DNA of 64,000 nt. It comes from Candidatus Competibacter sp. (GTDB lineage: Bacteria; Pseudomonadota; Gammaproteobacteria; Competibacterales; Competibacteraceae). Positions within the stretch are counted from its first letter, which is position 1, and the number at the start of each line of letters is the position of its first letter. A program made the position numbers and the translations under genes. The notes beneath the pieces are model-generated. The model did not search any database, had not been told where the DNA came from, and worked only from the letters and a program-made list of their open reading frames with translations. Positions 18,957 to 33,018 of the stretch are shown one piece after another. The stretch is taken from contig JARSSH010000048.1 in NCBI GenBank assembly GCA_029624815.1, forward strand, positions 1-64,000, given 5' to 3'.

Positions 18957-20033
18957 CTAGCGCCGCACCTCCAGGGTTGCCCGCAAGCGGACCGGATCGA
19001 CGTCGTCGGCGATGACGCCCTGCCCCAACCCGCGCAGCAGGATCAAGCGCAAGCGGCCATCCTGGACTTTCTTGTCCACCGCCATCAGCCGCAGGAAATC
19101 GTCGGCGGTCAGATCCGGCGGCGGCGCTGACGGCAGGCGGGCGCGGCCCAGCAAGACCAGTATCCGTCCGACCGACTCCTCGCTCAGCCAGCCCAACCGC
19201 GCCGAGAGATCGGCCGCCAGCGCCATCCCCGCCGCCACCGCCTCGCCGTGCAACCACGCACCGTAACCGGCGCCGGTCTCGATGGCGTGGCCGAAGGTGT
19301 GGCCGAGGTTGAGCAAGGCGCGCTCGCCGGTTTCGCGCTCGTCGGCGGCGACGATCTCGGCTTTGTTGCGGCAAGAGCGCTCGATGGCTTCGCTTAAAGC
19401 GCCGGCCTCGCGCGCCAGCAACGCGTCCAGATTCGCCTCCAGCCACTCCAAAAAGGGTAAATCGCGGATCAGGCCGTACTTGATGACCTCGGCCAAACCG
19501 GCGCTCAGCTCGCGATCCGGCAGGGTGGCGAGCGTATCGGTATCGGCCAGCACGCAGCGCGGCTGGTAAAAAGCGCCGATCATGTTCTTGCCGAGCGGAT
19601 GGTTGACCGCGGTCTTGCCGCCTACCGAGGAATCCACCTGCGCCAGCAGCGTGGTGGGAATCTGGATGAAATGCACGCCGCGCTGGTAACAGGCCGCCGC
19701 GAAACCGGCCATATCGCCGACCACCCCGCCGCCGAGCGCCAGAATCGTACAGTTGCGATCGAAGCGATGCCGCAGCAGGGCGGTAAACACCTCATCGAGC
19801 ACCGTCAGCATTTTATATTGTTCGCCGTCGGGCAGGATCGCCGCTTCATGGCGCAACCCGGTCAGCGCGGTGCGGACCCGTTCAAGATACAGCGGCGCGA
19901 CCGTGGCGTTGCTGACCACCAGCACCTGCCGGCCGGGAATATGAGGTCGCAGCAGATCGGGCCTACCGAGCAGGCCGGGACCGATGTGAATGGGATAGCG
20001 GCGGTCGCCGAGTTCGACGTGCAGGGTTTTCAT
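18957..20033 (-). CDS. aroB: 3-dehydroquinate synthase
   Basis: Second enzyme of the shikimate pathway (358 residues), NAD- and metal-dependent. Diagnostic parts: [17 protein letters not shown], the NAD-binding [38 protein letters not shown], Glu/His metal ligands in [21 protein letters not shown] and GEAVAAGM. The ATG at 20033 begins [15 protein letters not shown]. It follows aroK by 43 bp in the conserved aroK-aroB order. Confidence 0.97.
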
Positions 20034-20076
20034 AGAGCGTTTCCAATCGGAGATCAAGCGGGATCGGCGGATTTGG

Positions 20077-20610
20077 TCAGCGCGGGCTGCCCTGGCGGTT
20101 GAGGGCGCCGAGAATTCGCCCCACCACCTTTCTCACCGCTTGACCGTCGCTCTGAATCACGAGATCGGCGGTGGCGCGGTAGAGCGGATCGCGCTGTTCG
20201 AACAGTTGCGCCAAGCGAGCGCGAGGATCGGCGGTCTGCAACAACGGGCGGTTGCCATCCAGGCGGGTGCGCTGGAGTTGTTCGTCCACCGTGGCCCACA
20301 GATAGATGACAAAACCGCGCTCGCGCAAGCGGTTGCGATTGTCGGGGTCGAGCACGGCGCCGCCGCCGGTGGCGAGGATGAGGTTGGAGCGTTGAGTCAG
20401 TTCGGCGATGACGGTCTTTTCGCGGGCGCGAAAGCCGGCTTCGCCTTCCAGTTCGAAGATAAGGGGGATGCTGGCCCCGGCGCGCTGCTCGATTTCCTGA
20501 TCGCTGTCCACGAACTCGCGGTTCAGCACCTGCGCCAACCGGCGGCCGACGGTGGTCTTACCGGCGCCCATCGGGCCGATCAGGAACAGGCGGGAGATGG
20601 TGGGATTCAT
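20077..20610 (-). CDS. aroK: Shikimate kinase
   Basis: Phosphorylates shikimate at the 3-OH (177 residues). The P-loop is [16 protein letters not shown] (about residues 8-23), followed by the shikimate-binding DSDQEIE and [11 protein letters not shown], and the lid region NRPLLQ. The ATG at 20610 is preferred over one four codons upstream. In most gammaproteobacteria aroK follows pilQ directly; here about 7 kb separates them. Confidence 0.95.
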
Positions 20611-21124
20611 GGCGGCGGACACCGGTCAACTCCACTCAACGGGTCGCATCGCCACCACACTCTCCGACGCGCCTGCTCCAACAGGTCCGAATAGGCATAA
20701 GCGGTCACCGGCGGTGGCGCCAAAGGCAAAGCGCTGACTATCCACTTCACGGAGCTGGGCGACACTGAGGGACATGGAGCGGTTTCCTGATTCGATGCCG
20801 TGGCAAAACAGGTACGGCGATTCGCTGAAGTCGAGTTTTCGCCAGTATAAACACCGAAGGAGGCTTCCCGCATCCACAATCCGGCCCGCATCCCGAGATC
20901 CATGCGCCGACCGCGGCGAACCGATCAAATCACCCAATTCGAACCACCGTACCCAAATTCGGGCGTGCATCGATGTTTGCCAGCGTCATAAAAAGGCTAT
21001 ACTTGCTTATCTATAAGGAAAGGGCGTTGTAAGGGAGGGCGGCACGGTTTCCAAAACGGTGTCTTCCTGCAAAGAGAGCGAATGCACCTGTGCTGTAATG
21101 CCTTGAAGCGTGGAGCTTTTTATC
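20611..21124. other. Divergent intergenic region between aroK and the PASTA gene
   Basis: About 514 bp without a supportable gene. It must hold the aroKB promoter (minus strand) and the promoter and leader of the PASTA protein gene (plus strand). A roughly 120-nt leader precedes the PASTA gene and includes an imperfect hairpin around CACGGTTT...AAACGGTG (about 21040-21060). Composition is less GC-rich than the neighbouring aro genes. Confidence 0.5.
20977..21003 (+). promoter_or_regulatory. Candidate promoter of the PASTA protein gene
   Basis: TTGCCA (20977-20982) and TATACT (20998-21003) are 15 bp apart, slightly short for sigma70. The predicted transcript would have a leader of about 115 nt. 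Confidence 0.35.
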
Positions 21125-24100
21125 ATGAGATCAAAAACCGGTTTTTTTTCCACGTCGTTCCTGCTGATTTTTCTAGGCTTTTTTCTCATTTATCCACGGA
21201 TCGGCGCGGCGGCGAATGTTGCTGTCCCGAACGTGGTCGGCCAGACCGAGGCGACCGCCAAGGCTACAATCACGGGAACGTGTGATCTCAGCCCTGACGA
21301 CGATGGATGCCTATCGGTTGCCGTCACCTATGCCTTCAGCACCACCGTCCCCGCCGGCACAGTCATCAGCCAGAATCCGGGGCCAGGGCTCGCTCCCGCC
21401 GATACCACGGTCAACATCGTGGTATCCAACCGACTTACGGTGCCAGACGTGGTCGGCCAGCCCCAGCAAACCGCCACGCTGAACATCACCAATACCTGTG
21501 TGCCCGGCAATTCCGCCCAATGCCTGAAAGTCGGAACCGTCACCCAACAGGGCAGTTCCACCGTTCCCAAAGGCAACGTCATCAGCCAGGATCCAGCCGC
21601 TGGTTTTCTGACTCCCGCCGGCTCCGCCGTCAACCTGACCGTATCCTCGGGCCCCCCGTTGCTTGCCGTTCCGAACGTGGTCGGGCAAACCCAACTGGAT
21701 GCCGAAATTCAGATCAAAAACACCTGCGTGACCGGCACGACTCAGTGCCTGACCGTCGGCAACGTGATCTTCCAGACCAGCGAAACCGTCGCCGCCGGCT
21801 CCGTCATCAGCCAGGATCCTCCCGCTGGTTTCCAAGCCGCCGTTGGCGCCGCCGTTAGCCTCGTGGTGTCGTCGGGAAAGGCGCCGGTTGCAGTACCCAA
21901 CGTCGTCGGCCAAGCCCTGGCCAGCGCCAAGACCACTCTTGAGGGTGACGGCTTTAAGGTCGGCACCATCAGCTTGGTTGCCAGCGACACCGTCCCGGCT
22001 GGCATCGTCACCAGCCAGAATCCGGCCGGCGGTGCGCTGGTCGCGCCCGGCTCCACCGTTAACCTGACCATTTCCTCCGGTCCCGCGGCGCCGGAAGTGC
22101 CGCCGGTAACCCCGGGCGACATCACGGTTCCCAACGTGGTCGGGCTGACCAAGACTGGCGCCAGCACGGTCATCCGCAATTCCGGGCTCAACGTTGGGGC
22201 CACCATCCCGAAATTCGACGACAAAGTCCCTGCCGGCACGGTCATCGACCAAAGCCCGGCGGCCGGTTCCAAGGTGGCCGTCGGCACCGCCGTCAACCTG
22301 ACCGTATCCCAGGGTCCGGCCGGGGTCGTCACGGTCCCCGACGTGACCGGCCAACCGGAAAGCGTGGCGCAATCCAACCTGCAAAACGCCGGACTCACCA
22401 TCGGCGCCACCACCAAACAGCCCGATCCCACCATGCAAGCCGGCAATGTCATCCAAACCACGCCGGCGGCCGGTCAGCAGGTCGCGGTCGGCACGGCGGT
22501 CGATCTGGTGATCTCCGAGGGTTTTTCCGGACCGCAACAGTGTGTCGTGCCCGACGTGACCGGCCAAACGGTCGAGAATGCCGGCGAAATCCTGTTCGCA
22601 ACCTGTCTGTCGGGGATCGGCTCCATCACCGTGCAGCGCGACAGCACCGTGCCGGCTGGTCTAGTGGCCGCGCAGTTCCCCGCCGCCGGCTCGTTGATCG
22701 GCTACAACACCACCGTGAACGTGATCGTCTCTTCCGGCTCGCAACCGCCGGTCGTCACCCCGCGCGTGGTCGGGCTGACCCTGCCCGACGCCACCGTTCT
22801 GCTCGAAAGCGTCGGTTTAAAGGTCGGTTTCGTCTCCCACCAGACCAGCAACACCATCAAGGAAGGTCGCATTATCAGCCAAAACCCGCTGATGACGGCC
22901 TTGGCGCCGGTCGGCTGGGCGGTCAATCTGGTGGTATCGCTGGGTCCGGTGCCGGAAGATCCGGGCGCCAGCCCGCAAACCCAGGTTCCGGACGTGGCGA
23001 ATCTGACGCTGGCGGCAGCCACCGCCAAGCTGATCGCCGCCAACTTGCGGGTCGGCGTGGTCTCCAACCAGCGCAGTTCGGACGTACCCGCCGGCCAGAT
23101 CATCCGCCAAAATCCGCAGCCGGAAACGACCGTGCCGGTCAACAGCCGGGTTAATTTGGTGATCTCCTTCGGTCCCTACGCGTATGGCCTGCTCAGCGGA
23201 CCGGCCTATATCACCAACTACTACGGCAACACGGTGTCGATCCTGAATCCGGATATCAATCAAGTCGTCGATAACATGTCGGCGGGCATCAACAACAGCG
23301 GCCCCAGCGGCATCGCGGTCAGCCCGGACGGTACCCGGCTGTACGTCGCCAATCGCCCGCAGTACGGTCGGCGCGCGGGTACACTCTCGGTCATCGATCT
23401 GACCGAGCGCCGGGTGATCGCCATCATCCCGGTCGGTGTGGCGCCGCTGGGCGTTGCCGTCAACCCCACCGGCGAACGGGTGTTCGTGGCCAATGAAGGC
23501 AGCTTTAGCCTCTCGGTGATCGATGCCACCACCAATAAGCCGTTCATCGACCTGAACGTGCCCAATCTGGCGGCGAACCCCTACCCACGCGGCGTGGCGA
23601 CGCACCCCAACCCCACCATCCCGCTGGTGTACGTCACCAACCGGACGGTCAACTCGTTCTCGGACGATGCGACCAATCCTTATCCCGATCAGTGCGACGG
23701 GCTGGTATCGCGGCCCCCGGTGAACGTCAATCCGGACCAGTGCGTCGGCTCGCTGTCGATCTTCGACGCGGATCTGAAGACGCAGGTCGGCTCGGTGGCG
23801 GTCGGCTGGGCGCCGGAAGGCGTGGCGGTCCATCCCGACGGTATGCTGGTGTACGTGGCCAATTCCGGCGACCGGACCGTTTCGGTCATCGAAACCGTGT
23901 TCAACCGGGTAGTCGGCGTCATCACGCTGGACAATTTCGGCGGTGCGCCGCAACCGCTGGTGCCCCGTGGCGTCGCGGTCAGCCCGGACGGCAACCGGCT
24001 GTACGTCACCGATGGCGCCGGCAATCGCCTGTTCGTGATCGACACCACCGCCAACCATAGCGTGGTGGACATCGTGCCGGTCGGCAAGAAACCCTACGGC

Positions 24101-24619
24101 GTCGCGGTCAGCCCGGACAGCAAGCGAGTGTATGTCGCCAACTCCAACGACAATACGGTCTCGGTCGTTGAGGCGATCACCAACCGGGTAATCGCTACAG
24201 TGCCGGTGGTCTCGGGAATCAACGCCAACGGCCAATGGGCGCCGTGGGCCTTTGGTCGATTCGTGGGACCGCTGGCCACGGTGGCGACGCCGACCTTCGA
24301 TCCACCGGGCGGAAACTTGGCCGTATCCGTCAAGATCAGCTCCACAACATCGGGCGCTTCTATCCGCTACACCATGGATGGCAGCACGCCCACATCGACC
24401 CATGGGACGCTACTCAACAATGGCGGTTCCGTCTCGCTGGCTGGGCTGAACAGCACCTCCGTGGTTCTGAAGGCGATTGCTTTCAAGGACAACTGGGCGG
24501 ATTCCGCAGTTGCGGAAGCGATCTATTCCAACGACTCCACGCAGCTTTTACCCGGTGGAGGTAGCAATCCACCGGGCTTCGACCCAAGTGGGGGTGGGAA
24601 AAGCCCTGGTGAAGAATGA
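21125..24619 (+). CDS. Exported nine-PASTA-repeat protein with YVTN beta-propeller and chitobiase-C-like domain
   Basis: A 1164-residue exported protein. Residues 1-30 are a signal peptide (hydrophobic core FLLIFLGFFLIY, end GAAA). Nine PASTA-like repeats run from about 34 to 680, each starting with VPxVVGQ-type words and ending in xNLxVSxGP. Repeats 1-3 carry a Cys pair about 10 residues apart (NTCVTGTTQCLTV), suggesting disulfides; repeat 7 also has Cys. About 685-1045 is a beta-propeller with YVTN/SMP-type repeats (GIAVSPDGTRLYVAN, GVAVSPDSKRVYVANSNDN). About 1055-1135 resembles the chitobiase/hexosaminidase C-terminal domain (IRYTMDGSTPT). The tail is Gly/Pro-rich. PASTA repeats normally bind peptidoglycan-like ligands in Gram-positive kinases and PBPs; no kinase or PBP domain exists here. 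ATG 21125 has GGAG 9 bp upstream. A surface or cell-wall binding role is inferred. Confidence 0.9.
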   Translation: MRSKTGFFSTSFLLIFLGFFLIYPRIGAAANVAVPNVVGQTEATAKATITGTCDLSPDDDGCLSVAVTYAFSTTVPAGTVISQNPGPGLAPADTTVNIVVSNRLTVPDVVGQPQQTATLNITNTCVPGNSAQCLKVGTVTQQGSSTVPKGNVISQDPAAGFLTPAGSAVNLTVSSGPPLLAVPNVVGQTQLDAEIQIKNTCVTGTTQCLTVGNVIFQTSETVAAGSVISQDPPAGFQAAVGAAVSLVVSSGKAPVAVPNVVGQALASAKTTLEGDGFKVGTISLVASDTVPAGIVTSQNPAGGALVAPGSTVNLTISSGPAAPEVPPVTPGDITVPNVVGLTKTGASTVIRNSGLNVGATIPKFDDKVPAGTVIDQSPAAGSKVAVGTAVNLTVSQGPAGVVTVPDVTGQPESVAQSNLQNAGLTIGATTKQPDPTMQAGNVIQTTPAAGQQVAVGTAVDLVISEGFSGPQQCVVPDVTGQTVENAGEILFATCLSGIGSITVQRDSTVPAGLVAAQFPAAGSLIGYNTTVNVIVSSGSQPPVVTPRVVGLTLPDATVLLESVGLKVGFVSHQTSNTIKEGRIISQNPLMTALAPVGWAVNLVVSLGPVPEDPGASPQTQVPDVANLTLAAATAKLIAANLRVGVVSNQRSSDVPAGQIIRQNPQPETTVPVNSRVNLVISFGPYAYGLLSGPAYITNYYGNTVSILNPDINQVVDNMSAGINNSGPSGIAVSPDGTRLYVANRPQYGRRAGTLSVIDLTERRVIAIIPVGVAPLGVAVNPTGERVFVANEGSFSLSVIDATTNKPFIDLNVPNLAANPYPRGVATHPNPTIPLVYVTNRTVNSFSDDATNPYPDQCDGLVSRPPVNVNPDQCVGSLSIFDADLKTQVGSVAVGWAPEGVAVHPDGMLVYVANSGDRTVSVIETVFNRVVGVITLDNFGGAPQPLVPRGVAVSPDGNRLYVTDGAGNRLFVIDTTANHSVVDIVPVGKKPYGVAVSPDSKRVYVANSNDNTVSVVEAITNRVIATVPVVSGINANGQWAPWAFGRFVGPLATVATPTFDPPGGNLAVSVKISSTTSGASIRYTMDGSTPTSTHGTLLNNGGSVSLAGLNSTSVVLKAIAFKDNWADSAVAEAIYSNDSTQLLPGGGSNPPGFDPSGGGKSPGEE

Positions 24620-24640
24620 TAACGATTGAGTAGCCTGAAA

Positions 24641-24668
24641 GCCGCGATTCACATCGCGGCTTTTTTTT
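24641..24668 (+). terminator. Intrinsic terminator of the PASTA protein gene
   Basis: GCCGCGAT-TCAC-ATCGCGGC, an 8-bp perfect stem with a 4-nt loop, followed by eight T. It starts 21 bp after the stop codon. Confidence 0.95.
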
Positions 24669-25146
24669 GCCCGTTTTATAGACGGCGGCACGAAATTGTC
24701 CGGCACATACGAATGGGCGGCGGAGCTTTCCGGAAACATCCGTGTGCTGGGTTGGGTAACGGCAGGCGCGGCATCATAGCCAGTGCTTGGTGGAACCCAC
24801 TCCAGATTGTAGAGACTGCGCCATGATCGAGCTGCCGTTATGCCTCGCTCTGGTCGGGCGAAGGGGTGCGGCCCAAACAACCCGGCCTGTGAGGGTGCGA
24901 TGGAACGCTTATCCGCATCTTGAGTTTGTGGGATGGCGAGCCCGACTTTCCCAGAACCTCCCACTTTTGAATCGATAAAGTATTCCCCTGAAGCATGGGA
25001 GCGGGTGGTTCGGATGGTAAGAGTATCGCGCCAGTGCAGGGGGACACCGTCAAACTCTCCACAACTCAAGCTTCAATGAATTTTATGAGAACCCTTATGG
25101 GTGATTCATGGGATTGGGTCACACCTCACACATAACACGGCCAACG
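24669..25146. other. Gene-free spacer between the two large exported-protein genes
   Basis: No intact gene is supported. Frames on both strands here are open by chance and lack family similarity. The only recognisable piece is a decayed IS3-type transposase start (24972-25079). Confidence 0.5.
24972..25079 (+). pseudogene. Remnant of an IS3-family OrfA transposase gene
   Basis: Reading from 24972 gives SIKYSPEAWERVVRMVRV before diverging and stopping at TGA 25077-25079. This matches the start of IS3-family OrfA proteins (KYSPEVRERAVRMV). The helix-turn-helix continuation is missing. It suggests that an insertion sequence once lay between the two exported-protein genes. The match is short, so the call is tentative. 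Confidence 0.35.
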
Positions 25147-25176
25147 AAAAACCGGCGGGATCACCGCCGGTTTTAT
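25147..25176 (-). terminator. Intrinsic terminator after the Ig-like protein gene
   Basis: ACCGGCGG-GATCA-CCGCCGGT with A-run on one side and TTTTATT on the other; it can act in both directions. It lies 49 bp after the minus-strand stop codon at 25225. Confidence 0.85.
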
Positions 25177-25224
25177 TAGGTAATGGCAGGGAGGAAAGCT
25201 TACCCATCCCCCCGCATTTAAGGG

Positions 25225-27783
25225 TTACTGCGTTGGAGTCGCTTGCGGCGGCTGCGGCGGTTGCACCCTGATCTGGAGCGTTTGGCTTCGAATTTCGGGG
25301 CCAATGGTGGAGAAAAGGAAGTCAACGCTGCCATCCGTGGGCAGGTCGTTGACTTGCAGCACTAAACTGACAAATCCACCCACACCAGTAACCAATGTTG
25401 TTGGAACCACTGACGCCGTGGGCGTATGCAGGTTGGCAATTGCGCGCGCCTGAGCGGCGGCAATCCGCGCGTTCTCCAACGCAGTCGCCAGCTCCTTTTG
25501 CTTGGCGCATTTTTCCGGATCCCGTTCAACTGGGGTTTCCTGACCCTGCTCCAGGATCAAATCGCAGACCCCCGGATTGGCGGCGACGAATACATCCAAA
25601 GCAACTTGTGCCGTTACCAAAGCCTCCTCCGCCAGAATCGCCGCTGTTTCACTCGGATCATTGATGGTGATATCTACCGCGATCGGTACGCCCGGGATCG
25701 GAGTACGAATCACGCCTTCGGGAGGATCAGGAGTAGTAGGGTCTACAGGACCCGTGCAATTTCCGTTTCCAATCCCACCATCCAGCAATTGCAGAGTAAC
25801 AGCCTGAGTAATCGTTGCACCTGGCATTATCTCCAGAGTAGCCGTTGTTCCCCCGTCTACTCCCTCAAGACGACAAGCTATCTGTAGTGGAGGCATCTGC
25901 TGAGCAAGCGCCAACGGAGAGGTGATCGCAATAATACTTCCATCAGGATTTCCGAGATACCAATGCGTCATCACCGCGCCCACTTTCCCACCATTAGATT
26001 CGGCCACCAACATAAAACGTCGCCCCACTTGACTGGCCGGATAATTGATAATGGTACGGGCAATACCATTGGTATCCGTCATGACAATCATCTCGTTTAA
26101 CCCGAATACCGGGCTGTCCACGAAATTGAAATTCATGACGTTTCCCTTGTGCGGTGGGCAACCGACTGTATACCAAACATTGGCGCCAACATTCTGACTG
26201 ACTTGGTTGAACGGCGAATTAACGGTCAACATATTACCCGCCCGCCCGGTGATAAGCCGGCTACCGACATGGTATTCCAAGCGACCCTCGGAAGGTAAGG
26301 CATTGATCGTGCTTGGATTCGGGTTAATGACTTCCGGGTCTTGCAACACCAGTAAACACGGCCAATCCGCTAGGGCATACGACACACCGTTCGGTACCAC
26401 GAATGGATTGAGGGTATCACCAGTGGCCCGCGATACCGTCCGATTGGGGGCGAAAAACTCCCATCCACCCTCTTGGGGATCACCGTTGTAACCCGTAATC
26501 GCAAACTGGCCATGCCCCTGTTCGGGATAGCGGTTTACGAGCATGTCCAACGGCGAGTCGATCAGCCGGAACGTAATCGGCGTACCCGCTGGCGGTGGAT
26601 TACCATAAGGGTCGGAGGCAATCACATTGATGTAACGAATAAAAGTCCCGTCCCATAACACATCAGCCCAGCACCTAACATCAGGTGGCGGCCCTATATC
26701 CGGACAGGGATTGAGGGTGGTCGGATCAACCAACTGTGCCGCCAGCGAATTCCAACGTCCATTCACTGCGTCAGCGAATGGACCGGTAAAAGTCAGCGAC
26801 TTGATTTCGCCCGTCCCAATCGGCACCGAAGCGTAATTGGTGATCGGCATCTGAATGCCGTTATCCACATTGTTATCGGCGCGATCCGCCGTCGCGGCGA
26901 TCAGGACCGTGCCGGGCACCGTACCGCTATGCAAAGTCACGGTTGCCGCGCCACCGATGGGATCGGTCAGAATTGTCGCTCCTTGCTGGGTATTGCCGGC
27001 GGCATCGGTCGCACTCAACCATTCACCGCCGTTCGGCCGGTTCGGTAGCAACTCGATCCGCAGCATGTGACCTCCGCTGGGACTAACCGACTGAGCGAAA
27101 TCGTCCAGCACGAAAAGCTGGAACAGCTTAAAGTTCCGCTGCGGCACGGTGGTGGTGCCGTCGGGGTTGGTGCGAATATAAACCGGCGTGGGGTCCATGA
27201 CGAAATTGACCATGGCTGGTTTCCCTCCACCAACGCCACCGGTACCACCGCCAGTCACATTAATGGTCAAATTGGCGCTAATGGACTGCCCGGTATTCGG
27301 ATCGGTGGCCGTGGCCGCCAGCACCACCGTGCCCGGCGTACTGTTGGCATGGAAGTGCGCCGTGACAATCCCGTCGGTATCTTCAAACGTCAACCGGCGG
27401 AACGCCAGCGGATTGCCATTATCATCTTCGTGCTCCTCGTTGCCGTCCAGATAGAACAACGCGCCGCTGGAAAGACCCGAGACGATACTGATCGCCACGT
27501 TCGGCGCCGGGAACAAATTGCCGTTCTGTTTGACGACCACAGTGATCGTATTGGTATACGGACCGCTCGGATTGATTCCCGCATTGGTGATATTCAGCGG
27601 CAACGTGGTCTTGTCGGCGGTCATGCCGACGGTAATCGTCGCCCGGCCGGTAAATCCTCCGGTGAAACCGCCACCGCCACTACCATCAAAACGAATGGCG
27701 TCGCTGCTACCCCCCCAACCGACCAACATCGCGGCCAGCAACAACAATTCCGTAAACCCCGTCAAACGCCTCAGTAATCGCAT
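25225..27783 (-). CDS. Large exported Ig-like repeat protein downstream of pilQ
   Basis: An 852-residue exported protein. The signal sequence is MRLLRR then a hydrophobic core LLLLAAMLVGW followed by GGSSDA. In lipoproteins of this kind the residue at the W position is the lipobox Cys (LVGC-GGSS); here the codon is TGG. Bacterial Ig-like (Big-1-type) segments are recognisable by ANSTPGTVVLAATATD (about residues 148-165), HSGTVPGTVLIAATADRA (about 290-308) and a final domain near 790-840. Between about 715 and 785 lies an Ala-rich helical insert with two Cys. It starts 42 bp after the pilQ stop on the same strand, so it probably belongs to the pil operon, and ends at its own terminator. A role in pilus-related surface functions is inferred from position only. 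Confidence 0.85.
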   Translation of the reverse strand: MRLLRRLTGFTELLLLAAMLVGWGGSSDAIRFDGSGGGGFTGGFTGRATITVGMTADKTTLPLNITNAGINPSGPYTNTITVVVKQNGNLFPAPNVAISIVSGLSSGALFYLDGNEEHEDDNGNPLAFRRLTFEDTDGIVTAHFHANSTPGTVVLAATATDPNTGQSISANLTINVTGGGTGGVGGGKPAMVNFVMDPTPVYIRTNPDGTTTVPQRNFKLFQLFVLDDFAQSVSPSGGHMLRIELLPNRPNGGEWLSATDAAGNTQQGATILTDPIGGAATVTLHSGTVPGTVLIAATADRADNNVDNGIQMPITNYASVPIGTGEIKSLTFTGPFADAVNGRWNSLAAQLVDPTTLNPCPDIGPPPDVRCWADVLWDGTFIRYINVIASDPYGNPPPAGTPITFRLIDSPLDMLVNRYPEQGHGQFAITGYNGDPQEGGWEFFAPNRTVSRATGDTLNPFVVPNGVSYALADWPCLLVLQDPEVINPNPSTINALPSEGRLEYHVGSRLITGRAGNMLTVNSPFNQVSQNVGANVWYTVGCPPHKGNVMNFNFVDSPVFGLNEMIVMTDTNGIARTIINYPASQVGRRFMLVAESNGGKVGAVMTHWYLGNPDGSIIAITSPLALAQQMPPLQIACRLEGVDGGTTATLEIMPGATITQAVTLQLLDGGIGNGNCTGPVDPTTPDPPEGVIRTPIPGVPIAVDITINDPSETAAILAEEALVTAQVALDVFVAANPGVCDLILEQGQETPVERDPEKCAKQKELATALENARIAAAQARAIANLHTPTASVVPTTLVTGVGGFVSLVLQVNDLPTDGSVDFLFSTIGPEIRSQTLQIRVQPPQPPQATPTQ

Positions 27784-27825: not shown

Positions 27826-30060
27826 TCAACGTTCGGCCAACGCGCCGTTCTTCAAGATCTGCGGTGTCACGAAGATCAGCAGTTCGCGCTTGGTATTGTT
27901 TTTTCCCGTAGTCCGGAACAAGTACCCCAACAAAGGAATATCCCCCAGCAGAGGCACCTTGCTGACATCATCGCGCTTGGTTTGCTCGAAAACGCCGCCC
28001 AACACCACCGTTTCACCGTTGTTCACCATGACCTCCGTTTCGACTTCGCGTTTATCGATGCTGACCTGTGGCCCGGTCGCGGTCGCGACGGTGGCGCCCT
28101 GCTCATCCTTGGAAACCTTGAGATTCATACGGACGCGATCATCCGGCGTGATTTGAGGCGTCACCTCCAATTTCAGGAAAGCATCCTTGAACTCGACATT
28201 GGTTCCTTCCTGGCTGACCGTTGAGTAAGGAATTTGCCGGCCTTGTAGAACCGTCGCCTTCTTCAGGTCGGCGGTCACAACCCGGGGATTGGAAATGATT
28301 TCACCCTTGCCCTCGACTTGTAGCGCCGACAGTTCCAAATCCACCAGATAATCCGCTCCCAGAATCGACATCGCCAACCTCGGTCCACCCACTGGGAAGT
28401 CCACGCCTATCCGCTGATTGAGTTCCGGAATCGCCACCGGAAAGGGCTGGCCGGTGCTGATCAAATTATTCGCCGCGCTATCGACGATGGTATTGGTTCC
28501 CTGCAGGCTGCCGCTCAAGGCATTCACGCCACTGCCAGTTTGATTGACGCCCGTCACTCCAAAGCGGACACCCAAATCCCGGCTGAAGTCGTCGCTGGCG
28601 ATCACCACCCGCGAGTCGATCATCACCTGCCGGGTCGCTACGTCCAGCTTGCTTACTAGATCGCGGACCTCTGCAATCTTATCGGGCACATCCTTGACGA
28701 TCAGGGAATTGGTTCGCTCGTCGAACACCACATCCCCACGCGGCGACAACATGGTTTGTCCCTTTTCGCCAGCCTGCTTGAGCAGAACCGCCAGCTCCGC
28801 CGCCTTGGCATAATTCACCTGAATAATCTCGGTTCGCAACGGGATCAACTCCTGCACCGTTTTGCGCGATTCAAGATCCAGTTTTTCGCGAGCCGCAATC
28901 TCTTCGGTCGGGGCGATAAAGATCACATTGCCATTCTGGCGCATGGCCAAGCCTTTGGTGCGCAGAATGATATCCAGCGCCTGGTCCCAAGGCACGTTCT
29001 GCAAGCGCAACGTCAGGTTGCCCTTTACGCTGTCGCTGACCACGATGTTCAGCCCCGTGAAATCCGCCAGAATTTGCAGGATCGCCCGTACCTCGATATC
29101 CTGGAAATTCAGCGACAACAAGTCGCCCTTGTACTTCTTCTTGGATGGATCGAGCCTTGCTTCCTTCTCTTCCTCCTCCACGGATTTCTGCGGCGGGCGC
29201 ACCTCGATCACATATAAATCATTGGCCTGATAGGCCAGATACTCGAACGGCGGACTGGGAAGAATGCCCAAGCGGGCGCCGCCCCCCTGGTTCAACGCTT
29301 CCACGGTCGTAACCGGTGTGGCGAAGTCGGTGACGTCCAGACGCCGTTGCTGGCCTTTTTGCAAGATCGCCCCCTGAAAATCGGCGACGATCTGATTACC
29401 CTCCTGCCGCACGTCCACCGGAATTCCTGGGTTCGACAGTTTAACGGTGATCACGCCCTGCCCGCCCGGACCGCGCCGGAAGCTGACATCGCTGACATTG
29501 CGTGGCGACGCGACCGGCGCTTCGCCGCGCCGTGATGCGGCGGCTGCCGCCACCGACGCCGCCGGGGTGGGCGCCGGGGCCTTCGCGGCGCTTGCTCCCG
29601 CGTTCTCCAGCGTCAACAACACCGTGTTGCCCTGTAGTTGCACCTTGTAAGGCACCAGCCGCGCCAAATTCAGCGAGGCCCGGGTCCGGTCGGACCCCTC
29701 CAGCACACTGATCCGGTCGGCCACGCCGACGTTGATGGATTGCTGTCGTGTATTCAGGCCGTTGCGCGTGTCTAGAAAATCCAGCACGATGCGCGCTGGC
29801 TCGTTGATCGTGAACGTGCTTGGGGGCTGCGCGGGTGCTTCCGAAAGCCGGAAGCGGAGCTGCAGGCGGTTGCCAGCCAGCGGGCTAATATCCACTGCCT
29901 GTAACACCGGTTCCCGTTCGGGGACAGCCGCCAGCGCCCCGGTCCACCCCCCCCACAGCATCCCTCCAATCAAAAAAGCCGTAACCGCCAACATTGGCGG
30001 CAGCCATCCCCCGCCCGGTCGCCGGTCATGTTGGCCTTCGCTCGTGGACCTGCTCGTCAT
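27826..30060 (-). CDS. pilQ: Type IV pilus secretin PilQ
   Basis: Outer-membrane secretin channel for type IV pili (744 residues). After a signal-peptide region (about 20-50) come two AMIN domains (about 60-160 and 195-290), which bind peptidoglycan, then a secretin/TonB short N-terminal domain (LSLNFQDIEVRAILQILADF), an N1-type domain (RTEIIQVNYAKAAELAVLLK) and the secretin core ending RELLIFVTPQIL. The VGGPRLAMSILGADYLVDLELSAL-like region is typical. The ATG at 30060 has a strong GGGGGAAG site. It closes the pilMNOPQ block; aroK does not follow as usual. Confidence 0.95.
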   Translation of the reverse strand: MTSRSTSEGQHDRRPGGGWLPPMLAVTAFLIGGMLWGGWTGALAAVPEREPVLQAVDISPLAGNRLQLRFRLSEAPAQPPSTFTINEPARIVLDFLDTRNGLNTRQQSINVGVADRISVLEGSDRTRASLNLARLVPYKVQLQGNTVLLTLENAGASAAKAPAPTPAASVAAAAASRRGEAPVASPRNVSDVSFRRGPGGQGVITVKLSNPGIPVDVRQEGNQIVADFQGAILQKGQQRRLDVTDFATPVTTVEALNQGGGARLGILPSPPFEYLAYQANDLYVIEVRPPQKSVEEEEKEARLDPSKKKYKGDLLSLNFQDIEVRAILQILADFTGLNIVVSDSVKGNLTLRLQNVPWDQALDIILRTKGLAMRQNGNVIFIAPTEEIAAREKLDLESRKTVQELIPLRTEIIQVNYAKAAELAVLLKQAGEKGQTMLSPRGDVVFDERTNSLIVKDVPDKIAEVRDLVSKLDVATRQVMIDSRVVIASDDFSRDLGVRFGVTGVNQTGSGVNALSGSLQGTNTIVDSAANNLISTGQPFPVAIPELNQRIGVDFPVGGPRLAMSILGADYLVDLELSALQVEGKGEIISNPRVVTADLKKATVLQGRQIPYSTVSQEGTNVEFKDAFLKLEVTPQITPDDRVRMNLKVSKDEQGATVATATGPQVSIDKREVETEVMVNNGETVVLGGVFEQTKRDDVSKVPLLGDIPLLGYLFRTTGKNNTKRELLIFVTPQILKNGALAER

Positions 30061-30076
30061 GACACTTCCCCCTCGA

Positions 30077-30664
30077 TCATTGGGTAAGCGACAGAAACGC
30101 ATCCCGTTCCTGCCAGCGCCCGGGTCCATCCGGAACGATCTCCCGCAAATCTACTTGCTGCTCCGTGATGTCGACAATCTTGCCGTGGTTGGTCCCCAGG
30201 TAATTATTGTTCTGCACCCGGTGCACGACGCCATCGGGCGCCAGGATCAGCGCCCATAGTTCATTGTTACCCCCCATGCGAAAAGTACCCATCATCTTGA
30301 GTGAGCCTAACGAGTACTTCTCCAGTTCCTCACGCACCCGATTGGGGTCAGGCCGCACACCGGTATAGCCACCACCTTGCTGGGCCGCTAGTACCTGCGT
30401 TACCTCAAGCTCCTCCTCCTGGGCAAACGGCGCCACGATGAACGGATCCTTGATGCCCTGCGCGGTATAGGCAAACGGTGTGTAGGGCTTGATCTCCGGC
30501 GGAGGGTCTGGCTTTTTCATCGGCGTGGTGCGCTTGGTGGTCTCGACGAACTGTTGCAAGTCGGTCATATCGCGCTGCGCGCACCCCGCCAAGGCAGCCA
30601 GAACCGCGCCCAGCAGAATAGCGCGGGCGGGCACGGCGACATTCGGACGAAAGCACGGGTTCAT
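30077..30664 (-). CDS. pilP: Type IV pilus lipoprotein PilP
   Basis: A 195-residue lipoprotein that links the inner-membrane PilNO complex to PilQ. The lipobox is LAALAGC (Cys about residue 28). Family motifs seen are IKDPF, the segment RVREELEKYSLGSLKMMGTF and the HR domain with GVVHRVQNNNYLGTNHGKI. It starts within pilO's end by a 4-bp overlap and precedes pilQ by 16 bp. Confidence 0.93.
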   Translation of the reverse strand: MNPCFRPNVAVPARAILLGAVLAALAGCAQRDMTDLQQFVETTKRTTPMKKPDPPPEIKPYTPFAYTAQGIKDPFIVAPFAQEEELEVTQVLAAQQGGGYTGVRPDPNRVREELEKYSLGSLKMMGTFRMGGNNELWALILAPDGVVHRVQNNNYLGTNHGKIVDITEQQVDLREIVPDGPGRWQERDAFLSLTQ

Positions 30665-31329
30665 TTTTTGCCGGCCCCCTTGCCTTGTTGCTGGCCCGCG
30701 GACGGCGCATTGGCTTCATCCATATAGCGATACGTCTGCAAGGTGGCCTGGATATCGAGGGTTCCCACATCGTTTGCTTTCTTGCCACCTTTCGTTGCCT
30801 TATCGCTGGTAGCGGTCAGCGTCGCATTCTCCAGGGTCACAATCCGCGACAGCGCCGCAACCCCGCTGACGAACGCGCCGAACTGATGATAAGTCCCCTG
30901 CGCCTTGACGGTGATCGGTTTGGCGGCATAAAAATCCCGAGGCTGTTCGGCCTCGGGTTTGAATAGTTCGAAGTCCAAACCGTTTTTCTTGCCGGTGTTG
31001 GACACGTCCTCCAGCAGATCGGGCATCTCCGTACCGGTCGGCAACTGCCGCAACATGACTTCCAGCTCGGCCTCCATCTGCTTGAGCTGCGCCCGAAATA
31101 ATTCCAAACTGGCCGCAACCCGCTGCTTTTCAATAAACTCCTGCCGCAGTTGCTGCTCCTCGCGGGTCACCCGATCCAATTCTTCCAAGCGGTCGCTAGT
31201 GAAGAAATAATAGCCTGCTCCCAGCACGGACGCGATGACCAGAACGGACAGCACGATCTTGCCGATCCATGGCCAGTCGCCGGCTTCTCGCAGGTCGAAG
31301 TCGCTGAGGTTGATTTCCGACAGATTCAT
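30661..31329 (-). CDS. pilO: Type IV pilus assembly protein PilO
   Basis: Inner-membrane, 222-residue bitopic protein: one helix (about 22-46), a periplasmic coiled coil (about 50-110), then a ferredoxin-like domain with LLEDVSNTGKKNGLDFELFKP-type sequence and a C-terminal sheet. It pairs with PilN as the alignment complex. Overlaps with pilN (4 bp) and pilP (4 bp) indicate a tightly coupled operon. The C-terminus is extended by a Gly/Lys-rich tail. Confidence 0.92.
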   Translation of the reverse strand: MNLSEINLSDFDLREAGDWPWIGKIVLSVLVIASVLGAGYYFFTSDRLEELDRVTREEQQLRQEFIEKQRVAASLELFRAQLKQMEAELEVMLRQLPTGTEMPDLLEDVSNTGKKNGLDFELFKPEAEQPRDFYAAKPITVKAQGTYHQFGAFVSGVAALSRIVTLENATLTATSDKATKGGKKANDVGTLDIQATLQTYRYMDEANAPSAGQQQGKGAGKK

Positions 31330-31898
31330 GTTTTATCCCCCGCGCCTGCCTGCTCCGCGTCCAGTTTTAGCGGAACAAGCAGTTCGAACACTCGCGCCTG
31401 CACGTTATTCAGATTTTTGGTCTGAATCACTTGCAAGACCGGCTCGCCAAACAGCTTGGTATCTCGAATACTACGCATGAATTCGGAAATAATCAGGTCG
31501 GAGCGGGCAATGCCGTTGAGAGTCACCTGAGTATTGGTGGTCTTGAAAGCGCTCAGATAAATATCCTGCGGAACCAGCCGGACCAGCTCGTCCAACATCC
31601 GCACCATACCGGGACGGCTGGCCTGCAACTTCTGGATTACAGTCAGTCGCTCCACCAAGCGGTTTCGGGTTTGTTGTAGCGCCTGGATCTCCTCGGCGGC
31701 CTTCTTGAGCCGGGCCAGTTCGCCGCGCAGATAGTTGTTGCGCTCCTGCTGATGCTCGATGCGGTTGGCAATTTCGGTTTGCACCAAAAACACGATACCG
31801 GCGGCAAGCAATGCCGCCGCGACCAGCATCGAAAGCAACTCGCGCTGTCGCTGGGCACGGCGCGCCTCACGCCAAGGCAGCAAATTGATGCGCGTCAT
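31326..31898 (-). CDS. pilN: Type IV pilus assembly protein PilN
   Basis: A 190-residue inner-membrane protein. The conserved cytoplasmic N-terminus MTRINLLPWREARR binds PilM; one membrane helix follows (about 22-42), then a coiled coil and a ferredoxin-like periplasmic domain (LVPQDIYLSAFKTTNTQVTL). It starts 1 bp after the pilM stop and overlaps pilO. Confidence 0.94.
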   Translation of the reverse strand: MTRINLLPWREARRAQRQRELLSMLVAAALLAAGIVFLVQTEIANRIEHQQERNNYLRGELARLKKAAEEIQALQQTRNRLVERLTVIQKLQASRPGMVRMLDELVRLVPQDIYLSAFKTTNTQVTLNGIARSDLIISEFMRSIRDTKLFGEPVLQVIQTKNLNNVQARVFELLVPLKLDAEQAGAGDKT

Positions 31899-31899
31899 A

Positions 31900-33018
31900 T
31901 CAGTCGAAGCTCCTTAGGGCCAACCCACCGGCGACCGCCAGCAAGGGCGCGTCGCGCAATAAGGCGCTGCTGTTCACTTTAGCGGCGCTCCCCATGTTTT
32001 TGAAGGGATTCGCGACCACCGTGGCGATGCCCAGTACGTCCGCCACCACTCGGTCCAGACCTACGATCATGGCGCCGCCTCCCACCAAGGCGATCGTGGC
32101 TACATTATAGCGGCCCGAAGCATATTGGTCGGAGGAAAAAAAGAACTGCAAGCCGTGTCCAATCTGCTCGGCCAACATGTGCTTGAAAGGTTCCAGCACG
32201 GCCGTGGAAAAATCATCGGCCACCGAATCGGTGGCGCGCTTGGCCTGTTCGGCCTGCTCCCGTGATAGACCATAGGTCTCGGCGATCCGAAGGGTGAGTT
32301 GATCGCAGCCGAAGCCTTGCTCACGGGTAAAAATAACGCGATTCTGATGCAGGATGTACAAATTGGTGATGGTCGCTCCAATATCGACCAGCGCGGTCAG
32401 CTCTTCCCGTGGTTTGTCCAGGCTGATCGAGCCACCGCCACCAGCCTTGGGCAGACCCTCCATCAGCAGAAGAAACGAGTTTTCCAAGGCATAGGCCTCG
32501 ATATCCACGATCACCGGAATCAATCCCGCACTTTTGAGCGCGGCCTCCCGGGTGTCCACGTTTTCCTTACGGGTGGCCACCAACATAATGTCCTGCATTT
32601 CGCTGCTAGCCTGGGACAAACCCTTTATCTCAAAATCCAGATAGATTTCCTCGACGGGGTATGGAATATATTGGCCCGCCTCAATTGGAATATTGATCTC
32701 GACATCGCTTTCCTTAAATTCCGCCGGCATCGGTATGGTGCGCGTGATCACGCTGGATGTAGGCACGGCAACGGCAGCGCGGCGCAAGCGGGTGCCCGAT
32801 TTACGGCAGGCTCTCTTGATCGCCTCCCCCATCGCATCGGGATCGGCGGGGTTGCGATCCTCCATCATTCCCTCACCCAGCGGTTCGATGGCGAAGGATT
32901 CGACCCGGAACCGCGGCCCGGAACGACTCAGCTCGATCAGCTTGATCGATGAGGGGCTGATATCGATGCCCAGAATAGGTTCTTTACGCTTGAACAGAGC
33001 CAAGTTACGCTTCCTCAA
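31900..33018 (-). CDS. pilM: Type IV pilus actin-like protein PilM
   Basis: Cytoplasmic, 372-residue actin/FtsA-fold ATP-binding protein. Seen: ILGIDISPSSIKLIEL (phosphate 1), a second phosphate loop at ALVDIGATITNLYIL, and the adenosine motif ALVGGGAMIVGL. It recruits PilN to the membrane. First gene of the block; 110 bp separate it from the divergent gene at 33129, so the operon promoter lies there. The usual divergent neighbour ponA is absent. Confidence 0.95.
   Translation of the reverse strand: MRKRNLALFKRKEPILGIDISPSSIKLIELSRSGPRFRVESFAIEPLGEGMMEDRNPADPDAMGEAIKRACRKSGTRLRRAAVAVPTSSVITRTIPMPAEFKESDVEINIPIEAGQYIPYPVEEIYLDFEIKGLSQASSEMQDIMLVATRKENVDTREAALKSAGLIPVIVDIEAYALENSFLLLMEGLPKAGGGGSISLDKPREELTALVDIGATITNLYILHQNRVIFTREQGFGCDQLTLRIAETYGLSREQAEQAKRATDSVADDFSTAVLEPFKHMLAEQIGHGLQFFFSSDQYASGRYNVATIALVGGGAMIVGLDRVVADVLGIATVVANPFKNMGSAAKVNSSALLRDAPLLAVAGGLALRSFD

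Follow-up and report, generated by a model that had tools for sequence, protein, structure and literature searches.

PASTA domains are usually discussed as the cell-wall sensors of Gram-positive kinases and penicillin-binding proteins (PBPs). What, then, is an array of nine of them doing in an exported protein of a Gram-negative bacterium? The protein in question, P0001, is encoded at positions 21125..24619 (+) of the 64,000-nucleotide stretch that opens contig JARSSH010000048.1 of a Candidatus Competibacter sp. assembly (GCA_029624815.1); this whole stretch is referred to below as the window. Our best reading, which we would back about as readily as doubt, is a stalk-and-head protein, a surface adhesin or a matrix component, with a link to a type IV pilus locus.

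The gene is a single intact open reading frame (ORF) of 1164 amino acids. The ATG at 21125 has the better-placed GGAG, an alternative GTG start at 21110 being possible. The first 30 residues (21125..21214, +; MRSK...LLIFLGFFLI...GAAA) read, from the letters themselves, as a putative Sec-type signal peptide, and are followed by nine PASTA domains (residues 32-682), a YVTN propeller (approximately residues 692-1030) and a CHB_HEX_C_1/Fn3-like domain (residues 1060-1130). Pfam recovers the nine PASTA stretches (E 5.9e-107), propeller families of the lactonase, YncE and NHL types, and the C-terminal CHB_HEX_C_1 or Fn3_assoc domain (24302..24514, +; E 4.1e-10), while NCBIfam identifies six YVTN repeats (TIGR02276) with 154.7 bits against a repeat cut-off of 27.85. 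P0001 contains no kinase domain, no transpeptidase/PBP domain, no lipobox and no C-terminal sorting signal. The original prediction of a nine-PASTA exported protein joined to a YVTN-type propeller and a chitobiase-C-like domain is borne out by the intact frame, the putative signal peptide and the profile matches, and its description of the array as a stand-alone export product agrees with the lack of a kinase or PBP domain.

When P0001 is scored with the PASTA profile (PF03793; curated cut-off 23.2 bits), nine places exceed the cut-off, all on the + strand: repeats 1 (21218..21430, with Cys53-Cys62), 2 (21437..21649, Cys125-Cys133), 3 (21668..21874, Cys201-Cys208), 4 (21887..22078, Cys-free in the window protein), 5 (22121..22312), 6 (22328..22516), 7 (22547..22735), 8 (22754..22939) and 9 (22982..23167). 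An AlphaFold2 model covering repeats 1-4, and not repeats 5-9, has a predicted local distance difference test score (pLDDT) of 88.8 and adopts the PASTA fold, one helix facing three strands. Its best matches in the PDB are the linear PASTA arrays of PrkC and PknB (Foldseek E to 1e-14, VIA Z 14), so that structure prediction upholds the claimed fold for these four repeats.

The gene is present in nine of 39 Competibacteraceae genomes, every ortholog found lies in that family, and the named relatives of the window protein at 67-89% identity are all Candidatus Competibacteraceae. The number of PASTA domains is nine in five of the orthologs, five in two and ten in one, the remaining one being cut by a contig end. 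In a tree of 70 repeats, the copies of r5 from all nine proteins fall in one group, as do those of r6, r7, r8 and r9, from which repeats 5-9 are taken to be the fixed core of the array, repeat 5 being the first core repeat and found in all orthologs. Ahead of this core stand 0, 4 or 5 extra N-terminal repeats, which are not always orthologous. In genomes G005 and G025 (G and L numbers denote the genomes and loci of our comparison) the signal peptide is joined straight to r5, and the G037 ortholog (L037:5240-9304, +) carries an N-terminal PEBP domain (PF01161) plus extra, divergent N-terminal repeats. No recent tandem duplication of repeats is detectable at the DNA level, the repeats being 30-59% identical. 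Identity to the window protein is 77-96% for the propeller, 48-92% for r5-r9 and 61-82% for the CHB domain; dN/dS (nonsynonymous over synonymous substitution rates) against the orthologs is 0.06-0.31 throughout, with the propeller lowest in four of five comparisons, and the gene is judged on this to be under purifying selection. Because the copy number varies from 5 to 10 and no domain is more conserved than the propeller, a conserved head on a length-tolerant PASTA stalk is well supported by these comparisons. Of the two functions originally suggested, ligand-binding or spacer, it is the spacer that is favoured for the PASTA part, and ligand binding is less favoured there.

That the array is instead a multivalent binder of peptidoglycan or exopolysaccharide, anchoring the protein to the sacculus or the matrix with the propeller as cargo, we regard as a doubtful possibility. 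Peptidoglycan is a ligand of PASTA domains in kinases and in PBP1 of S. aureus (PMC9426605, PMC5786024), which counts against a stalk, and nine copies would provide avidity. Work on StkP and PrkC indicates that PASTA repeats may serve beyond ligand binding, for example in controlling septal wall thickness (PMC5786024). It has also been proposed that a peptidoglycan-binding PASTA domain is marked by an Arg or Glu where PBP1 has Pro603; PMC9426605, which cites this rule, shows it to fail for PBP1. The equivalent residue, located from the 7o4c structural alignment start, falls on the Pro in the V-P-N/D-V motif, and it is Pro rather than Arg or Glu in all nine repeats of P0001. This would speak against peptidoglycan binding, weakly, since the rule fails for PBP1. 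The absence of up to four repeats from orthologs and the faster evolution of the repeats relative to the propeller likewise argue against a binding array.

Tandem PASTA domains are typical of cell-wall stress sensors in PASTA kinase or PBP pathways, and the NCBIfam model PknB_PASTA_kin (NF033483) matches P0001. This match is confined to the PASTA part and reaches 361 bits against a cut-off of 450, in a protein with neither a kinase nor a transpeptidase domain. The only other PASTA protein of the window genome is a 339-residue Cohesin-PASTA-PASTA-IPTL-CTERM protein on another contig, and there is therefore no PASTA kinase or PASTA PBP available as a partner, which largely refutes a sensor; we consider such a role scarcely credible. 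The Cohesin/IPTL-CTERM protein is encoded on contig C15 of this genome (L038:9291-10307, -), and its two PASTA repeats are near-identical.

The paired cysteines of the repeats follow a pattern of their own. Cys is absent from 45 of the 70 repeats of all orthologs, present as exactly two residues in 24 and as a single residue in one (r7 of G037). Both cysteines of the r4 pair are present in G014, G017 and G018 and neither in the window genome (G000), G004 or G037; both cysteines of r7 occur in G000, G004, G005 and G025; and in repeat 9 a pair has been gained in G029 only. One of the N-terminal repeats of G037 has its pair at a different place. The 24 pairs are not independent, owing to relatedness, and represent perhaps four to six independent events; gain or loss of the two cysteines together is nevertheless well supported by this count, as would be expected of the proposed disulfide-braced PASTA variant. 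The count is read without a p-value, since a random-placement null takes no account of relatedness. The pairing of cysteines in repeats 1-3 therefore stands as originally described, with two amendments: the spacing is 9, 8 and 7 residues and not uniformly about 10, and a second kind of pair, 21 residues apart in repeat 7, had been missed. Across orthologs the r1 spacing ranges from 9 to 20 residues. The pairs of r1-r4 and r9 flank a loop inserted between the end of the helix and strand 2, and in repeat 7 Cys473 directly precedes strand 1 and Cys494 lies at the end of the helix. In the model of repeats 1-4 both cysteines of r3 are lone bridge residues in DSSP, r2 is ambiguous and the r1 loop is of low confidence. 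We infer that disulfides form in the N-terminal repeats, and the Cys-loop variant of the PASTA domain looks new.

The head is a predicted seven-bladed YVTN propeller (residues 692-1030; 23198..24214, +). Its model has a mean pLDDT of 78.3, the propeller part being mostly above 80, and matches the YVTN propeller of an archaeal surface-layer protein (1l0q) with a Z score of 43.7, a root-mean-square deviation of 1.7 and 40% identity, above all other chains compared. The most striking feature of the head is an insert with the invariant Cys857 and Cys873, which is strongly conserved and is modelled at low confidence. Could the propeller be an enzyme carried by a PASTA rod, either a lactonase or a relative of L-NosZ, hydrazine synthase beta or YncE? 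The weak matches to these families and the seven-bladed fold common to them are what would recommend it. The scores are, however, far under the equivalog cut-offs (55 against 700 bits for L-NosZ, NF052460; 70 against 400 for YncE; 87 against 560 for hydrazine synthase beta), and only three His of the head are invariant across orthologs, where the NosZ copper site needs seven. With a surface-layer propeller as the closest relative, an enzyme appears improbable, and identification of P0001 as a NosZ-like or lactonase enzyme was dropped.

The surroundings of the gene suggest a link to the type IV pilus locus. Convergent with it, and overlooked in the earlier reading, lies ORF852 (25225..27783, -), which encodes an exported, Ig/invasin-like protein and begins approximately 40 bases after pilQ. 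The pilQ, pilP, pilO, pilN and pilM genes form a type IV pilus assembly operon (27826..33018, -), read from the translations, and their order is conserved in relatives; pilQ scores below the cut-off of the GspD model, as a related secretin. The usual downstream neighbours of pilQ, aroB and aroK (18957..20622, -), are here split from it by the inserted gene pair. A hairpin followed by a T-run at 24637..24664 (+) is a probable terminator of the PASTA gene (fold z -4.75; absent from the consensus scan list), and a second at 25145..25179 (-) probably terminates ORF852 (fold z -4.55; scan site 25166-25153). The promoter scan found nothing. ORF852 itself has no Pfam or PDB match, a weak Invasin_D3 match being seen in one ortholog only. 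That it is a lipoprotein whose lipobox Cys has mutated to Trp was considered and dropped, as no aligned ortholog has Cys at that position.

The two genes are co-inherited. Full-length ORF852 is found in 11 of the 39 genomes, and all nine genomes with the PASTA gene are among these, including two in which the genes are unlinked. The order of the window (PASTA gene, ORF852, pilMNOPQ) recurs in G004, G005, G014, G025, G029 and G037. When G002 and G024 are set aside, a PilMNOPQ tree offers four independent contrasts, and in all four the PASTA gene and the 852-type ORF switch together; with these two included the joint switch is seen in three to four of five contrasts, and the opposite never. ORF852 keeps a fixed place after pilQ in many Competibacteraceae, and distant relatives of it adjoin pilQ or aroK in other gammaproteobacterial families.

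Several observations weigh against our best reading. Genomes G002 and G024 have ORF852 and not the PASTA gene; in G024 only about 200 bases of contig remain beyond ORF852, and in G002 transposase-like ORFs are found at that place. A sign test on the four contrasts gives only p = 0.125, and with so few the value cannot be lower. G017 and G018 have the PASTA gene away from the pil operon, full-length ORF852 still following pilQ, and the PASTA-propeller and Ig proteins may share the slot only by history. Nor does P0001 possess a lipobox, a sorting signal or any other anchor that would account for retention at the surface. The pilus link could also be a coincidence and P0001 an ordinary matrix protein that is secreted and whose gene happens to occupy a permissive site between pilQ and aroK; the position of the gene in G017 and G018 speaks for this. 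The slot also holds unrelated propeller proteins in other genomes, in keeping with coincidence; co-inheritance with ORF852 where the genes are unlinked, and the distant ORF852 relatives at pilQ or aroK, argue otherwise, and we think coincidence unlikely.

The other occupants of the slot bear on both explanations. Elsewhere in the family a longer Ig protein follows pilQ, of 1392-1882 residues where complete, with He_PIG and Big_1 domains. In G012, G026, G028 and G030 the next large gene after it encodes a different exported propeller protein, of the DUF7948 type; in G034, where the contig begins within an Ig-like ORF, the next large gene is again a DUF7948 propeller gene (L080:13283-17845, L082:232-4815, L083:14096-17362, L084:6504-11093 and L159:1999-6624). 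Where scanned, these proteins carry SBBP repeats plus InlB-type B-repeats, and their host genomes are without the PASTA-propeller. G013 and G033 have the long Ig gene with no DUF7948 propeller gene after it. The repetition of the theme, an Ig protein and then a propeller protein, favours an adhesin or matrix module at the pilus locus. In G034, FimT/PilV/PilW-like pilin genes (L159:7731-9681, +) stand one ORF beyond the propeller gene, a further point against coincidence; no pilin genes follow it in G012, where this arrangement is not repeated, which is a point in favour of coincidence. From these loci the Ig gene at pilQ seems to be the older, and the PASTA-propeller one of at least two partners found with it.

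Outside the family, the nearest propellers among 274 gammaproteobacterial genomes score less than 93 bits and occur in genomes without PASTA. PASTA domains are present in 12 of these 274 genomes; several of the proteins concerned are exported, have multiple PASTA domains and combine them with partners of other kinds. An exported array of this sort in a Gram-negative is thus uncommon, not unique: the host is unusual, as first claimed, and such proteins do exist elsewhere in the Gammaproteobacteria. A second exported PASTA family occurs in the Competibacteraceae (L039:7907-11230, L040, L041 and L042), in which two GLIRGWxCxAxxVEVSIDGGP domains precede 2-7 PASTA repeats. Many other Pseudomonadota (G336-G563, family f199) have one weak PASTA domain in an ORF of approximately 650 residues, possibly a class B PBP. 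Chain J of PDB entry 8s7v, which belongs to the activation complex of methyl-coenzyme M reductase, can be aligned with a PASTA domain (Z 6.7), a likeness that may explain PASTA hits in methanogens.

How does P0001 compare with known proteins? The Ser/Thr kinase arrays of S. aureus PrkC (3py9, 3m9g) and M. tuberculosis PknB (5e12, 2kui) share with it the PASTA fold and the head-to-tail tandem arrangement. Unlike them, P0001 has no kinase or membrane anchor, nine repeats where those structures have 3-4, disulfide-type Cys loops, a C-terminal propeller and a Gram-negative host. The 1l0q protein likewise combines a seven-bladed YVTN propeller with other extracellular domains; it has PKD repeats in place of the PASTA stalk, and P0001 differs further in its invariant Cys-closed insert, its CHB cap and its bacterial origin, and is not known as a surface-layer protein; the likeness is one of propeller fold only. 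Exported gammaproteobacterial multi-PASTA proteins (seven repeats in G071, six in G196, and five plus RHS-like repeats in G102) resemble P0001 in having tandem PASTA without a kinase, but their partner domains are different and those genomes have no related propeller. PilY1, the adhesin at the tip of type IV pili, whose propeller is C-terminal, is similarly a large exported protein with a propeller head and a pilus link; P0001 has no match to the PilY1 family of Pfam (PF05567), and the window genome has its own PilY1 on another contig. The DUF7948/SBBP proteins occupy the same place after pilQ and an Ig-like gene and are likewise exported propellers with repeats, although they are unrelated in sequence, lie on the same strand as pilQ and carry InlB-type B-repeats or CARDB instead of PASTA.

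The stalk-and-head explanation can be set out as follows. P0001 would cross the inner membrane via Sec and possibly travel onward through one of the genome's type II secretion systems, such a system being detected in the window genome. On the cell surface or within the matrix it would then form a rod and head, the tandem PASTA domains serving as a semi-rigid stalk. Short loops closed by disulfides, where the helix meets strand 2, would brace the N-terminal Cys repeats of this stalk. The functional head would be the YVTN propeller together with its Fn3/chitobiase-C-like cap, and would bind a partner or polymer. P0001 would act with the exported Ig-like ORF852 protein, the pair probably constituting a surface adhesin or matrix module tied to the type IV pilus locus.

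Every domain type in P0001 is known. In the open-licence full texts searched, nothing relevant was found on PASTA with YVTN, PASTA in Competibacter or PASTA with disulfide, and neither PASTA nor YVTN proteins are mentioned in PMC12019908, a paper on a granule secretome. Those texts likewise yielded no report of this combination of domains, of the Cys-loop PASTA variant or of co-inheritance with an Ig protein linked to pilQ; the architecture and the variant look new.

Competibacteraceae are common in activated-sludge granules. To our knowledge, little has been established about the proteins that hold such granules together. Here, in a Gram-negative that forms granules, PASTA looks like a building block from which an exported rod is made. 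We suggest, tentatively, that this family recruited PASTA to build a stalk of adjustable length into a surface adhesin or a matrix protein that is tied to the type IV pilus, and that the disulfide-closed variable loop of the N-terminal repeats could be a diversifiable binding site. The natural variants with 5, 9 and 10 repeats allow a direct comparison of stalk and binder, and the co-inherited pair beside pilQ provides two concrete candidates for granule-holding proteins.

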